Assembly (NCBI GenBank): GCA_947461435.1
Contig: CANHLE010000005.1
Span: 1-64,000, forward strand
From: Paracoccaceae bacterium
Lineage (GTDB): Bacteria; Pseudomonadota; Alphaproteobacteria; Rhodobacterales; Rhodobacteraceae
DNA: 64,000 nt
Direction: 5' to 3'
Shown in pieces: positions 1 through 31,767 of this stretch; the first letter of the stretch is position 1; every line of letters starts with the position of its first letter. The position numbers and the translations under genes are program-made. The notes below the pieces were generated by a model. That model was given only the letters and a program-made list of their open reading frames with translations, ran no database searches and had not been told where the DNA came from.

Positions 1-765
1 GCGCGGGCACGCAAAGGGCAAATGCCGCATCTTTATGATTTGGCCTCGACGATGGGCTGGTCCTATCTTTGCGTGATTGCCGAAGGTGAGACCTGGTTTC
101 GCAATCCCTCTGTTTATGCCTTTTTCGACCAAATGGTCTTGGAATCCTTCTTTGACGGCTTTGACCGTGTGCAATTTTACGGGGCAGGCATGACGGGCTA
201 TGCCGCCTGCGCCTTTTCGGTGGCCGCGCCCGGCGCAACCGTGCTTGCCGTCGCCCCCCGCGCCACCATGGCACCGAACCGCGTCCCCTTCGAACAGCGG
301 GATCGTGGGGCCCGGCGGCTTGATTTTTCCAGCCGCTATGGCTTTGCACCCGATCTGATCCGCGCGGCAAAAGAAGTGTGGATCCTGCGCGATCCGGCCC
401 ATACCGCCGACGCCGCCCAAGCCGCGCTGTTTCAGGGCCAGCATGTGAAGACCCTGAATGTCCGCTATATGGGCGAGCGTGCCGAACATGCGCTGATCGA
501 ACTGGATATTCTGCCGCAGCTTTTGGTCGCCGCCATGAAGGGAGAGCTGACGCCTTCAGTGTTCGCAACCCTGTGGCGGGCGCGGCGCAAATTTGGCGGC
601 TATCTGAAACAACTGCTGCTGCGCACCGATGCCGCAGCGCGCGAAACCCTGTCTTATGCCATTTGTGCCAATGTGGCGCGGCGCACCCGCGCGCCGCGGT
701 TCAAGCGGCGTTTGGACGAGATGGATGCAGCGCGTGCCGCACGGGTCAAGGAACCCGTGCAGTGA
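1..765 (+). CDS. alpha/beta-hydrolase-fold protein of unknown function, 3' part
   Basis: The frame is open from the first base (ARARKGQ precedes the first Met at base 22), so the true start lies outside the window. The visible 254 codons carry YGAGMTGYAA where alpha/beta hydrolases have a nucleophile elbow of the type YGSSMGGYAA, followed by a hydrophobic strand and VLAVAPRATM. The nucleophilic serine position is glycine, so a classical serine hydrolase activity is not expected. The C-terminal part is basic and helical. Related Rhodobacterales proteins are, as I recall, sometimes labelled PAPS reductase, but no PAPS-reductase motif is visible and I consider that name unsupported. The gene ends 1 bp before the stop of the convergent lprI-like gene. 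Confidence 0.6.
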   Translation, partial: ARARKGQMPHLYDLASTMGWSYLCVIAEGETWFRNPSVYAFFDQMVLESFFDGFDRVQFYGAGMTGYAACAFSVAAPGATVLAVAPRATMAPNRVPFEQRDRGARRLDFSSRYGFAPDLIRAAKEVWILRDPAHTADAAQAALFQGQHVKTLNVRYMGERAEHALIELDILPQLLVAAMKGELTPSVFATLWRARRKFGGYLKQLLLRTDAAARETLSYAICANVARRTRAPRFKRRLDEMDAARAARVKEPVQ

Positions 766-1254: not shown

Positions 1255-2298
1255 ATGATGCACAGCCTTACCCTCCGCCGCCCCGACGATTGGCACCTGC
1301 ACCTGCGCGATGGCGCGATGCTCAAAGGTGTCCTGCCCGAAACCACACGGCATTTTGCCCGCGCGATCATCATGCCCAATCTTGTGCCGCCCGTCGTCAC
1401 CGGCGCGCAGGCCCTCGCTTACCGCGACCGTATTCTGGCCGCCCTTCCGGACGGCGCGCCGTTTGAACCCTTGATGACCCTGTATCTGACCGAAGGAACC
1501 GATCCGGCCGATGTTGTGGCCGCCGCCCAATCCGGGTTGATCAAGGCCGTCAAACTTTACCCCGCGGGCGCGACGACCAACAGCCACGGCGGCGTGCGCG
1601 ACCTGACGCGGGTCTATCCCGTGCTGGAGGCGATGGCGAAAATCGGTCTGCCGTTGTGCACCCACGGCGAGGTGACCACCCCCGACGTCGATATCTTCGA
1701 CCGCGAAGCCGTGTTCATTGACACCGTGCTGGATCCCTTGCGCCGGGCCATCCCGGGCCTGCGCGTTGTGATGGAACACATCACCACGTCCGAAGGGGTT
1801 GCCTATGCCGCATCGGGCGGTGCGGATCTGGCTGCCACGATCACGACGCATCACCTGATCATCAACCGCAACCATATTCTGGTGGGGGGGATCCGGCCAC
1901 ATTACTATTGCCTGCCCGTGGCCAAACGGGAAAGCCATCGGCTGGCCCTGCGAAAAGCGGCCACTTCGGGGGCGGCCTGTTATTTTCTGGGAACCGACTC
2001 CGCGCCGCATATCGATGCTCTCAAGGAACATGCCTGCGGCTGCGCGGGGTGCTTTACCGCCACCAACACCATGCCCCTTCTGGCGCATGTCTTCGAAGAC
2101 GAAAATGCCCTTGGCCAATTGGAATCCTTCACAAGCCTGAACGGGCCCGCCTTTTATCGTCTGCCCGCGAACGAGGCCCGCATCACCATTGTCAAACATG
2201 CGGCCGCGCAAACCTTTCCGGAAAAAATCCTGACGGAGGCCGGTCCGGTCACCGTTTTCAACCCCGGTTTTCCGGTATATTGGCATGTGGAAAGCTGA
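1255..2298 (+). CDS. pyrC: dihydroorotase, class II
   Basis: Catalyses reversible cyclisation of N-carbamoyl-aspartate to dihydroorotate in pyrimidine synthesis (cytoplasm). The 347-aa product aligns along its length with E. coli PyrC from memory: [13 protein letters not shown] supplies metal ligands H14 and H16, [13 protein letters not shown] contains the lysine (K100) that is carboxylated to bridge the two zinc ions, and GEVT, MEHITT, GTDSAPH and CGCAGCF follow in family order. The longest open frame extends to 976, but homology begins only at the ATGATG at 1255/1258, which has a G-rich stretch just upstream. pyrE follows after 76 bp on the same strand. Confidence 0.96.
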
Positions 2299-2374
2299 CG
2301 TTCCGCCACAGCGCAGCCGTTGAACCGCCCTGCCGCCGCATGACCTTGGCCCGCGGCCCCTCGAAAGAACCGTG

Positions 2375-3055
2375 ATGATCCCTGCAGCCTTCCCCCCCGC
2401 CGCCGAAATCGCCCGCCTGACCGCCCGGGCCCTGTTGGAAATCAAGGCCGTTCACTTCAACGCCGATACCCCGTTCACCTTGGCGTCTGGTTTGCCCTCG
2501 CCCACCTATATTGATTGCCGAAAGTTGATTTCTTACCCGCGCATCCGATCTGTCTTGATGGATTTTCTGACGGTCACGATCCTGCGCGATGCCGGCTTCG
2601 AAGCCTTCGACAACATCGCCGGCGGCGAGACGGCCGGCATCCCCTTTGCCGCCCTTGTGGCCGAACGCATGGCCCTTCCCATGACCTATGTGCGCAAGAA
2701 ACCCAAAGGCTATGGCCGCAACGCCCGGATTGAAGGCGCGATGTCCGAAGGGCAGCGCGTGCTTCTGGTCGAGGATCTGACCACGGATGGCGGATCAAAA
2801 CTGTCGTTTGTCGATGCCATCCGCGAAACGGGGGCCACCTGCGCCCACACGGCGGTGATCTTTTACTACGGTATCTTCCCGGAAACCACGCAGCGGCTCG
2901 CCGATCATGGAATCGCCTTGCATCATTTGTGCACCTGGTGGGATGTTCTGGCCGAAGCCCGCGCGCAGGGCGCCTTCTCGCCCGAAACTCTGGCCGAGGT
3001 TGAAACCTTTCTGCACGATCCCCGCGCTTGGCAAGCCGCCCGCAGCAAGGCTTAA
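2375..3055 (+). CDS. pyrE: orotate phosphoribosyltransferase
   Basis: Transfers ribose-5-phosphate from PRPP to orotate to give OMP. The 226-aa protein has the orotate-side signature [18 protein letters not shown], the lysine-rich mobile loop [10 protein letters not shown], and the PRPP-binding loop [14 protein letters not shown]. The C-terminal extension with CTWWDVL is typical of the alphaproteobacterial branch as I know it. GTG at 2372 directly precedes the chosen ATG, and either could be used. It follows pyrC, so two consecutive steps of the pathway are co-transcribed or at least adjacent. Confidence 0.95.
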
Positions 3056-29440: not shown

Positions 29441-29535
29441 GTGTGAATGCGCGCGCTTGGCGGCCAATTTCTGCCCGCTCTGGACCTTTGCCCAAAATTC
29501 CCTATATAATCGGTCAACAAAGCAAGAGACCGACC

Positions 29536-29898
29536 ATGAACCAACCGCAGGACCCTTTGGAAGGCGCCCCCCTGATCGCGCCATCCACCACCGAACATCC
29601 TTTGTATGAGGATGTGGTCAACGCCTGCCGAACCGTGTTCGATCCTGAAATTCCGGTCAATATTTTTGACCTTGGCCTTGTCTATACCATTGATATCGGC
29701 GCCGAAAATCAAGTCGCCATCGCCATGACGCTCACAGCCCCCGGCTGCCCGGTTGCCGGCGAAATGCCCGGCTGGGTACAAGAAGCGGTCTCGTCAGTCG
29801 CGGGCGTCAAAGAGGTGGACGTGAACATGACCTTCGATCCCCCTTGGGGCATGGAGATGATGTCAGACGAAGCCCGCCTTGAACTTGGCTTCATGTAA
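29536..29898 (+). CDS. SufT-like Fe-S assembly protein (MIP18/DUF59 family)
   Basis: 120-aa single-domain DUF59 protein. Motifs: YEDVVNACRTVFDPEIPVNI, FDLGLVYTIDI, MTLTAPGCPVAGEMPGW (conserved Cys) and VNMTFDPPWGMEMMSDEARL, matching the SufT/PaaD-like MIP18 group. Such proteins help mature Fe-S proteins, usually beside the suf operon; here an IscA-like gene is about 1.5 kb downstream. ATG 29536 is chosen over the longer frame, which overlaps ssb and its terminator. Confidence 0.88.
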   Translation: MNQPQDPLEGAPLIAPSTTEHPLYEDVVNACRTVFDPEIPVNIFDLGLVYTIDIGAENQVAIAMTLTAPGCPVAGEMPGWVQEAVSSVAGVKEVDVNMTFDPPWGMEMMSDEARLELGFM

Positions 29899-29927
29899 GG
29901 CAACCCCCTAAGCCTGCAACTGCCAAA

Positions 29928-29976
29928 TGCAAGCCTTTTAGATTGCAAAAATACTTCGCAAGCATTTTAGCTTGCA
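29928..29976 (+). promoter_or_regulatory. two tandem 20-bp inverted-repeat operators before the SatD-like gene
   Basis: TGCAAGCCTTTTAGATTGCA (29928-29947) and CGCAAGCATTTTAGCTTGCA (29957-29976) match at 17 of 20 positions and start 29 nt apart. Each is an inverted repeat: the second is GCAAGC-ATTTTA-GCTTGC, the first has TGCAA/TTGCA arms. They end 30 bp before the start of a gene with a C-terminal helix-turn-helix, so autoregulation is likely. Confidence 0.65.
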
Positions 29977-30005
29977 TTTCATCCCCATAATGCTAAATTT
30001 CGTCC

Positions 30006-30659
30006 ATGGAACAGGGCTCTGTGATCACGGGTGATCTGATCGGCTCGACCCGGCTTGCACCCGAGGCGACCAGCATCGCCATGTCGGCCTTGGGCGAAGC
30101 CGCAGCCACCCTGTCGCGCCTGACGGGCACCGATGCGCGCTTCACCCGGTTTCGCGGCGATGGATGGCAGGTGTATCTGCCCGGCAGATCCCATGTTCTG
30201 CGGGCGGCGCTGTTGCTGATGGCCCATCTGCGCGCCTCTGGCAGCGGGTTGACCACACGCCTGTCGGTGGGCGTCGGGCCGATCACCTCCTTGGGCACGC
30301 AGGATCTGTCCGATGCCGCAGGCCCGGCCTTTACCCTGTCCGGCCGCGCCTTGGACAAGATGCCCCCTCAGCCCCCCCATTTCGCCTATAGTGACCCTCA
30401 CGATCTTGGGTCTTGGCGGCAGGCGGTGCTGAATCTGGCGCTTTGGCAGGCCCGCGCCTGGACCCCCGAACAAGCCCAGGCGGCCGCCATGACCCTGACC
30501 CCGCCGGCCTTCGGCCCCCGCCCCAGCGACGAGACGCTGGCGAAAACCCTTGGCATTTCCCGCCAGGCCTTCCAATCTCGGATCAAGGGCTCCGGCGTCG
30601 CCTGCCTGACCCGCGCCCTGATGGCCTTCGAATCAGGCGCTGACCCCGCGGAGATCTGA
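30006..30659 (+). CDS. SatD-like regulator: cyclase-fold sensor domain plus C-terminal HTH
   Basis: 217 aa. The N-terminal 125 residues resemble class III nucleotidyl cyclase domains: VITGDLIGSTRLA matches the first metal-binding strand (xDIxGST), FRGDGWQVYLP matches the second (GDGxxxxF), ALRAALLLMAHLRA the following helix, TTRLSVGVGPI the RIGIHxG strand, and GPAFTLSGRALDKM the GxAVNxAARL helix with the catalytic Asn replaced. The C-terminus has an HTH: PSDETLAKTLGISRQAFQSR. It therefore looks like a DNA-binding protein with a nucleotide-binding sensor. The SatD family and its neighbourhood with DUF3307 genes are known in Firmicutes, but function is unclear. The gene stops 1 bp before the DUF3307 gene. 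Confidence 0.65.
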   Translation: MEQGSVITGDLIGSTRLAPEATSIAMSALGEAAATLSRLTGTDARFTRFRGDGWQVYLPGRSHVLRAALLLMAHLRASGSGLTTRLSVGVGPITSLGTQDLSDAAGPAFTLSGRALDKMPPQPPHFAYSDPHDLGSWRQAVLNLALWQARAWTPEQAQAAAMTLTPPAFGPRPSDETLAKTLGISRQAFQSRIKGSGVACLTRALMAFESGADPAEI

Positions 30660-30660
30660 G

Positions 30661-31383
30661 ATGATCCAAACCCTTGCCGCCCTGATCTTTGCCCATGTCC
30701 TTGCCGATTTCGTTCTTCAATCCAGCGCCATGGTGGCCAGCAAAGCACGCCCCGCCACGCTGGCCCTGCATGGGCTGATCGTGCTGGCCACGGCCACGCT
30801 GGCTTTGGGGGCGGCCTCGGTTTGGCTTTTGGCCCTCGCGGCCGCGCACATGGCCATCGACATCGCCAAAACCCGGCTGACCCGCCCTGGCTTTTGGCCC
30901 TTCATGGCCGATCAGGCCGCCCATGGCCTCAGCCTGATCATGGTGGCCTATGCCGCCCCGCGCCTGTGGCAAGACGGTGTGTGGTCACCCCTCGCGCCAG
31001 ATTTGCCCATCCCGTCCCTGATGATTCTGGCCAGCGGCGCGATTGTGGCCACCCGCGCCGGCGGTTTCGCGATCGGCTTGCTGATGGAACCTTGGGCCGC
31101 CCATACCCCGGCGGGCCTGCCCAATGGCGGGCGCGCCATCGGCAATCTGGAACGCGGGCTGATCTTTCTTCTGATTCTCACGGGTCAGGCGCAAAGCATC
31201 GGCTTTCTGATCGCCGCAAAGTCTGTCTTGCGATTTGGCAGCATCAGCAATGAAAAAGAGGCCAGCGAATATGTCATCATTGGCACGCTGGCCTCGTTTT
31301 GCTGGGCCATCGCGGTGGCCTTGGGCACAACAACTTTGCTGGGCCACCTGCCCGCCCTTGGAATTCCCGACCTTTTGCCTTAA
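30661..31383 (+). CDS. DUF3307 integral membrane protein
   Basis: 240 aa with about six hydrophobic helices. The N-terminal part has the DUF3307 pattern of polar residues within membrane helices: IFAHVLADFVLQSSAMV, LALHGLIVL, AAHMAIDIAK and ADQAAHGLSLI, giving four histidines and two aspartates that could bind metal or protons. The C-terminus has LIAAKSVLRFG and EYVIIGTLASFCWAI. It starts 1 bp after the SatD-like stop, so the two are translationally coupled. Function unknown. Confidence 0.75.
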   Translation: MIQTLAALIFAHVLADFVLQSSAMVASKARPATLALHGLIVLATATLALGAASVWLLALAAAHMAIDIAKTRLTRPGFWPFMADQAAHGLSLIMVAYAAPRLWQDGVWSPLAPDLPIPSLMILASGAIVATRAGGFAIGLLMEPWAAHTPAGLPNGGRAIGNLERGLIFLLILTGQAQSIGFLIAAKSVLRFGSISNEKEASEYVIIGTLASFCWAIAVALGTTTLLGHLPALGIPDLLP

Positions 31384-31407: not shown

Positions 31408-31767
31408 ATGTTTGGAATTCCCGGAAAAGCCGCTGTCACCCTTACCCCCATTGCCGCGCGCCAGATCGCAAAGCTGATGGGCCAGAAAGGCGCCGAAGGC
31501 CTTCGCATCGGCATAAAGAAGGGCGGCTGTGCGGGCATGGAATACACGATGGACTATGTGGCAGACCGCAATCCGCTGGACGAGGTGGTTGAACAGGACG
31601 GCGCGCGTGTGCTGATTGCGCCCATGGCCCAGATGTTCCTGATCGGCACCGAGATCGATTACGAGGTGGATCTGCTGCAAGCCGGGTTCAAATTCCGCAA
31701 TCCCAACGTCGCAGAGGCTTGCGGCTGCGGCGAGTCGATCAAGTTCAAGGACCAGCCCAGCGCCTGA
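31408..31767 (+). CDS. IscA/SufA-like A-type Fe-S carrier
   Basis: 119-aa HesB-like protein: VTLTPIAARQIAKLM, LRIGIKKGGCAGMEYTMDY, and the C-terminal NPNVAEACGCGESIKF, which give the three conserved cysteines (C, CxC) of A-type carriers. It delivers Fe-S clusters to apo-proteins. AAGGAG lies about 6 nt before the ATG. SufA, IscA and ErpA cannot be separated by eye. Confidence 0.9.
   Translation: MFGIPGKAAVTLTPIAARQIAKLMGQKGAEGLRIGIKKGGCAGMEYTMDYVADRNPLDEVVEQDGARVLIAPMAQMFLIGTEIDYEVDLLQAGFKFRNPNVAEACGCGESIKFKDQPSA

Follow-up and report, generated by a model that had tools for sequence, protein, structure and literature searches.

Mycobacteria have multidomain proteins in which a cyclase-like domain and a LuxR-type helix-turn-helix (HTH) are joined in one chain. 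The SatD family takes its name from the sat (secretion and acid tolerance) operon in Streptococcus mutans. In the literature searched (subscription journals and preprints were outside it), SatD appears as a family name tied to acid tolerance (PMC10326533), and no operator or DNA-binding role was found for it; DUF3307 appears there in one paper alone, as an entry in a table of jumbo-phage genes (PMC8504454). Some class III cyclases, e.g., Rv1900c, can do without the catalytic Asn (PMC4886424). DUF2652 cyclase-like proteins (PMC4886424) were set apart by their description as a different family.

A stretch of 64,000 nucleotides from a Paracoccaceae bacterium (contig CANHLE010000005.1), referred to below as the window, carries a satD-like gene followed by the gene of a DUF3307 membrane protein. 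A preliminary description of this locus had suggested that a degenerate cyclase domain senses a nucleotide and autoregulates the membrane protein through inverted repeats. The sequence features described there are real and understated, and the interpretation is supported in part; at the level of DNA recognition the case is stronger than proposed. The reading favored here, with a probability of about 0.7, is that SatD is a nucleotide-sensing one-component regulator, most likely a repressor of its own two-gene operon with DUF3307.

The satD-DUF3307 locus and its distribution

The features of the locus are collected in Table 1. As described previously, two 20-bp dyads precede satD, are identical at 17/20 positions and are located 29 nt apart from start to start; the chance expectation for such a pair in the window is 0.07. 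The third dyad lies directly 3' of the stop codon of the upstream gene and exactly 29 bp upstream of the next copy. Genome-wide, the tandem pattern (≤3 mismatches) was detected at this locus, in two overlapping registers, and at one 3-mismatch site on another contig, and the reversed-pattern control of this search gave 0 matches. Within its genome, the 29-bp tandem is almost unique. A genome search with a single dyad was uninformative (310 matches per strand vs. 174 for the reversed pattern). The gap between satD and the next gene is 1 nt, and the membrane protein reported there is DUF3307 (PF11750; 56.1 bits against a cut-off of 23, E = 4.8e-15).

Table 1. Features of the locus (nucleotide positions in the window, or residues where indicated) and their basis
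Feature	Position	Strand	Basis or remark
Third operator dyad, degraded, GCAACCCCCTAAGCCTGC	29900..29917	.	Genome-wide tandem search
Operator dyad 1, TGCAAGCCTTTTAGATTGCA, 18-bp core GCAAG-N8-ATTGC at 29929-29946	29928..29947	.	
Operator dyad 2, CGCAAGCATTTTAGCTTGCA, core GCAAG-N8-CTTGC at 29958-29975	29957..29976	.	
Proposed -10 box TAAATT	29994..29999	+	Tentative reading of the window against the 51-locus promoter profile
satD-like gene, 217 aa	30006..30659	+	AlphaFold, Foldseek, HTH matched to operators
Class III cyclase-fold domain of SatD	about residues 1-150		AlphaFold and Foldseek
C-terminal HTH of SatD	helices 175-182, 186-196		AlphaFold; matched to operators
DUF3307 membrane protein gene, 240 aa	30661..31383	+	Pfam PF11750, alignment, model
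Neighboring DUF59 Fe-S assembly gene (PF01883)	29533..29898	+	Usual left flank
Neighboring HesB/IscA-type gene (PF01521)	31408..31767	+	Usual right flank

The comparison set comprised 144 distinct SatD homologues; the profile scan of genome contigs was performed with a 15-member alignment. A homologue is present in 88 of the 396 sampled Rhodobacteraceae genera (about 22%). The flanks are nearly constant: the DUF59 Fe-S gene is located upstream in 117/143 cases and the IscA/HesB gene downstream in 128/135. Of 20 genomes that lack satD, 13 have the two flanking genes directly side by side (IscA within 120 nt); satD-DUF3307 is therefore present or absent as a unit at a single site. Since the DUF59 and IscA-type genes adjoin in many genomes lacking the pair, they mark a site and not a pathway; the DUF59 gene is a site marker outside the satD-DUF3307 system, and an Fe-S function deduced from the neighborhood was set aside.

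The coupling to DUF3307 suggested earlier holds across the loci of relatives, where the pair is kept together. DUF3307 is found beside satD in every Rhodobacteraceae locus with enough downstream sequence (L042, L060 and L145, cut by contig ends, were excluded) except L085. At L085 (satD match 1998-2606, minus strand) both metal Asp motifs are lost, DUF3307 is missing and a dyad is retained, which gives the appearance of an operon in decay. Some Rhodobacteraceae genomes without satD (G006, G012, G017, G028 and others) have solitary DUF3307 ORFs that are short, about 130-200 aa, and similar to the phage form. The combination of satD and DUF3307 was seen in Proteobacteria and on a Bacteroidota plasmid; among phages, jumbo and T4-like ones also carry DUF3307.

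Plasmids of Sphingomonas, Segatella, Pseudomonas fragi, Enterobacter, Vibrio and Klebsiella carry the pair. In Klebsiella (L212:281-1937), the pair makes up the main cargo of a ColRNAI plasmid of 4.4 kb, on which three other genes are listed. On a Sphingomonas insulae plasmid (L181:947-8437), the pair is situated between a ThsB-type TIR gene/ImmA-like gene and a Pycsar cyclase-effector pair, and on an Enterobacter kobei plasmid (L210:47-5662), it follows a Gabija GajB helicase (E 1.5e-232) as well as an IS3 element. One chromosomal copy (L200) lies near a type IV restriction-like gene; other chromosomal copies, judged by eye, are among ordinary genes. PADLOC gave no model match for SatD or DUF3307, including the PycC and Pycsar effector profiles. 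As these neighborhoods are cases without a control, a plasmid pair found twice beside known defense systems is a lead toward defense, not proof.

Operator dyads, promoter geometry and recognition code

The repeats noticed in the window are conserved upstream of relatives. In an unbiased palindrome count over 85 upstream regions, perfect 5-bp arms at spacer 8 were found 128 times against 10.6 expected, the highest count of all spacers. A sequence-independent de novo search (threshold: a score of 17 or more of 20) detected tandem 5-N8-5 dyads at 132/144 homologous loci vs. 0.4% of shuffled regions. Successive dyads are 28-30 bp apart in 222/236 cases, mostly 29; two to four copies are present at 128 of the 132 loci, and two-dyad loci account for 51/132. 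The commonest positions are -49 and -20, with distal copies at -78 and -107.

Autoregulation, as proposed initially, agrees with the dyads located upstream of satD in 122 loci, but in 10 loci they are called between satD and DUF3307; the constant target therefore looks like DUF3307 itself, and autoregulation alone is an incomplete account. In most of these 10 loci, residue 186 is Q and the gap between satD and DUF3307 is longer. A few loci seem, by eye, to have dyads both upstream of satD and before DUF3307. Upstream of satD in L209, L210, L212 and L219, single or paired TCAAC/ACAAC-type dyads have a 7-nt and not an 8-nt spacer (partly by eye); a second operator class is possible.

Alignment of the 51 loci whose dyads lie at -49 and -20 (the A of ATG being +1) reveals TTGC[AT]T at -35 to -30, followed by a 17-nt spacer and a TATA-like element at -12 to -7. 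In this profile, the -35 box is formed by the right arm of one dyad and the -10 box by the center of the next, an arrangement that would in itself give a 29-bp period. The window is without the -20 dyad found in relatives. It could be read as a -35 box TTGCAT (29972-29977), overlapped by the right arm of dyad 2, a spacer of 16 nt and the -10 box of Table 1, with a predicted +1 at 30006; a generic sigma-70 scan scored no promoter in the window. The predicted +1 would be the A of the satD start codon, giving a leaderless mRNA. Repression is likely, as the overlap of the dyads with the -35 and -10 boxes argues for it without proving it; both leaderless transcription and repression are inferred from the promoter geometry.

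Half-sites vary among the loci (GCAAG, TCAAG, ACAAG, ACAGG, ACAGC, GCAAC, GAAAG and GGAAG). All 217 SatD columns were ranked by association with each half-site base. Base 1 is most strongly associated with R186, base 2 with Q187, base 4 with A188 and base 5 with S191 (the rankings for bases 2 and 4 rest on few variant loci), and the top columns for all four informative bases lie in the predicted recognition helix 186-196. At residue 186, R is paired with G in base 1 at 98 loci, Q with A at 9 and P/T/A with T at 16; at residue 187, E is paired with G and P with A in base 2, in few loci; at residue 191, K is paired with C in base 5 in 13/16. Independent switches were traced on a tree from which the HTH had been excluded; five loci with register artefacts in the de novo search (L046, L069, L076, L105 and L164) did not enter this test. 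Pairs on well supported branches never run the opposite way and are few (2, 3 and 3). Because supported independent switches are so few (2-3 per position), no significance is claimed from the tree test alone, and the code statistics rest on the column ranking, the out-of-sample cases and the mix of switches.

The code was derived without the homologues from gammaproteobacteria, and these mostly obey it, with exceptions. K191 occurs with C5 in L182, L201 and L211, R186 with G1 in six loci (L182 and L202-L206), Q with A in L201 and T with T in L211. The R-to-G rule is broken by L200 and Segatella L183, where R pairs with T. Operator recognition, i.e., reading of the dyads by the predicted HTH of SatD, is well supported by these associations.

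The Segatella SatD (L183:3929-4624) combines RQNFNYHW with dyads of the TCAA type. At positions 190/191 it has N/Y, as does the TCAAG class of Rhodobacteraceae, and these positions may therefore share in reading base 1.

Properties of SatD and DUF3307

The AlphaFold model of SatD (pLDDT 94.7) contains both the cyclase fold and the C-terminal HTH claimed in the preliminary description, the latter being matched to the operators. Its best PDB matches in Foldseek are class III cyclases (E about 1e-4 to 1e-3, TM by target up to 0.54), with Rv1900c structures at the top and a bacterial cUMP synthase among them; GGDEF domains and GTP cyclohydrolase III are ranked lower. Sequence searches of solved structures with SatD gave HTH-level or chance matches only. 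The motifs GDLIGST, FRGDGWQ and GPAFTLSGRAL listed previously are all present. The class III fold is found with its first strand and the hairpin carrying the metal Asp: D10 and D52, whose equivalence to the metal Asp was set by motif and topology, not by superposed coordinates, are each kept in 143/144 homologues, as is Q55, and W54 is kept in 144/144. The catalytic Asn and Arg of the class are not retained in this way. The Asn is absent, as had been stated, its variable position being occupied by T110, and the transition-state Arg position (R114) is Arg in 82/144.

The missing Asn agrees with the term degenerate cyclase used initially, but to call the domain degenerate for want of Asn is too quick, since this residue is dispensable in Rv1900c and both metal Asp are nearly invariant in SatD, which might thus still be an active enzyme. 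The SatD-like naming is supported by the GD...GD[EGS][FW]Q motifs, the HTH and the DUF3307 pairing (a hallmark taken from the preliminary description and the loci seen here), but not by PF16264 (SatD), which gives the window protein 11 bits against a cut-off of 29 (E = 0.32) and matches 7/74 relatives at E < 0.01 (best 4e-5). At the sequence level, SatD corresponds to a one-component regulator, with a sensor-like and a DNA-binding domain in one chain and an operator at its own promoter. The initial proposal had been made dependent on a cyclase-like fold and on conservation of the repeats in relatives, and at this level both were found.

In the DUF3307 model (pLDDT 94.9), eight helices are predicted instead of the six proposed previously. 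Residues invariant in the alignment are H12, D16, Q20, K28, H37, H63, D67, K70, D84, Q85, H88, E164, R165, K187, S188, R191, E203 and Y204. As a guess from the sequence, they would suit a metal site in the membrane and a patch that binds phosphate. The fold search against the PDB gave no meaningful match, that against a viral library gave another DUF3307 alone (E-value 4), and the sequence search of solved structures gave no matches. Phage DUF3307 (phrog_2470) is found in phiKZ-like phages, Aeh1 and Sulfitobacter phages. The N-terminal half with the His/Asp motifs is common to the phage and window proteins, whereas the phage form is mostly short and without the C-terminal half. SatD was looked for in phages, and none was found. 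In Aeh1 (L213:2480-3331), the DUF3307-like match covers an annotated ORF of 345 nt for a membrane protein together with the annotated ORF that follows.

Proposed mechanism, alternatives and known systems

According to the proposed mechanism, and here on strong evidence from the sequences, the C-terminal HTH of SatD reads 18-bp tandem dyads (5-N8-5), mostly 28-30 bp apart, located before satD or, in part of the genomes, before DUF3307 alone. Judging from the sequences of relatives, neighboring dyads would coincide with the -35 and -10 boxes, so that bound SatD would shut out RNA polymerase. The cyclase-fold domain, in which the two metal Asp are kept and Asn/Arg are not, could bind a metal-nucleotide and thereby change DNA binding. 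The released product would be DUF3307, whose first helices carry invariant His/Asp and whose last ones carry Arg/Lys/Glu, probably a membrane enzyme or channel-like effector answering the sensed nucleotide change. The nucleotide ligand and the DUF3307 function are presumed.

Alternatively, SatD could be enzymatically active, as a nucleotide cyclase or nucleotide-polymerising enzyme, and repress its own operon as well; DUF3307 would then be a membrane effector activated by the enzyme product, in a Pycsar-like, possibly anti-phage signaling module of two genes. Such an enzyme would suit the nearly invariant metal Asp, the dispensable Asn of Rv1900c (whose structures top the fold matches), the cUMP synthase among these matches, the position of the pair beside Pycsar and ThsB in Sphingomonas and beside GajB in Enterobacter, and its role as main cargo of the small Klebsiella plasmid. 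We nevertheless consider it unlikely: Arg occupies its position in just 82/144 homologues and the Asn position is variable, no PADLOC model matches the pair, chromosomal copies often lie among housekeeping genes, and the defense neighbors are few cases without a control. An activator, recruiting polymerase from the distal dyads (-78, -107) and limited by the proximal ones, would make use of the two to four dyads present at most loci; it is a distinctly improbable option, as the commonest dyads (-49, -20) overlap the inferred -35 and -10 boxes and two-dyad loci are common.

Binding of the dyads by another regulator, the match of the SatD helix reflecting shared ancestry, appears very improbable. 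Related sequences do share both traits, and well supported independent switches are few; ancestry, however, touches all 217 columns alike, yet the four top columns sit in one helix, different switches (R/Q/P, Q/E/P and K) and remote gammaproteobacteria fit the same code, and the tandem is near-unique in its genome. That the repeats are RNA hairpins or a terminator and not operators is hardly conceivable: a terminator-like site was scored on the minus strand (29976-29957), but such sites are about as many as in shuffles (2 vs. 1.5), the predicted transcript start is downstream of the dyads, and the fixed 29-bp period and helix-matched half-sites speak for operators.

Repression by a nucleotide-sensing SatD is thus the preferred reading. 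A bolder and rather doubtful extension would make SatD-DUF3307 an undescribed mobile two-gene module for signaling or defense, in which a nucleotide-handling cyclase-fold sensor or enzyme also represses its membrane effector and the recognition code is readable. The operator map assigns to the orphan SatD and DUF3307 families a first definite role open to experiment, that of a cyclase-fold DNA-binding switch for a membrane protein, and turns a gene pair that occurs even on very small plasmids into a switch that can be tested directly. For the pairing of helix residues with bases, the recognition code provides a clean data set from nature, and release from the dyads offers a simple assay by which the sensed nucleotide could be searched for. 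If the mobile copies are defense modules, a regulator-sensor design would be added to the cyclic-nucleotide defense field.

Compared with class III cyclases (Rv1900c, CyaC, Ma1120 and the bacterial cUMP synthase), SatD is alike in fold and in both metal Asp, but has no catalytic Asn, no conserved Arg, about 15% identity and a fused HTH. With the SatD family (PF16264), the window protein shares the two-motif GD...GD arrangement and the C-terminal HTH; intermediate forms exist, e.g., RGDEFQ in Vibrio L211. The mycobacterial proteins likewise have a cyclase-like domain joined to an HTH but are much larger, and we know of no tandem-operator code or DUF3307 partner for them. In Pycsar (PycC cyclase and PycTM), as in the pair described here, a cyclase-fold protein stands beside a membrane protein, whereas SatD differs by its HTH and altered active site.
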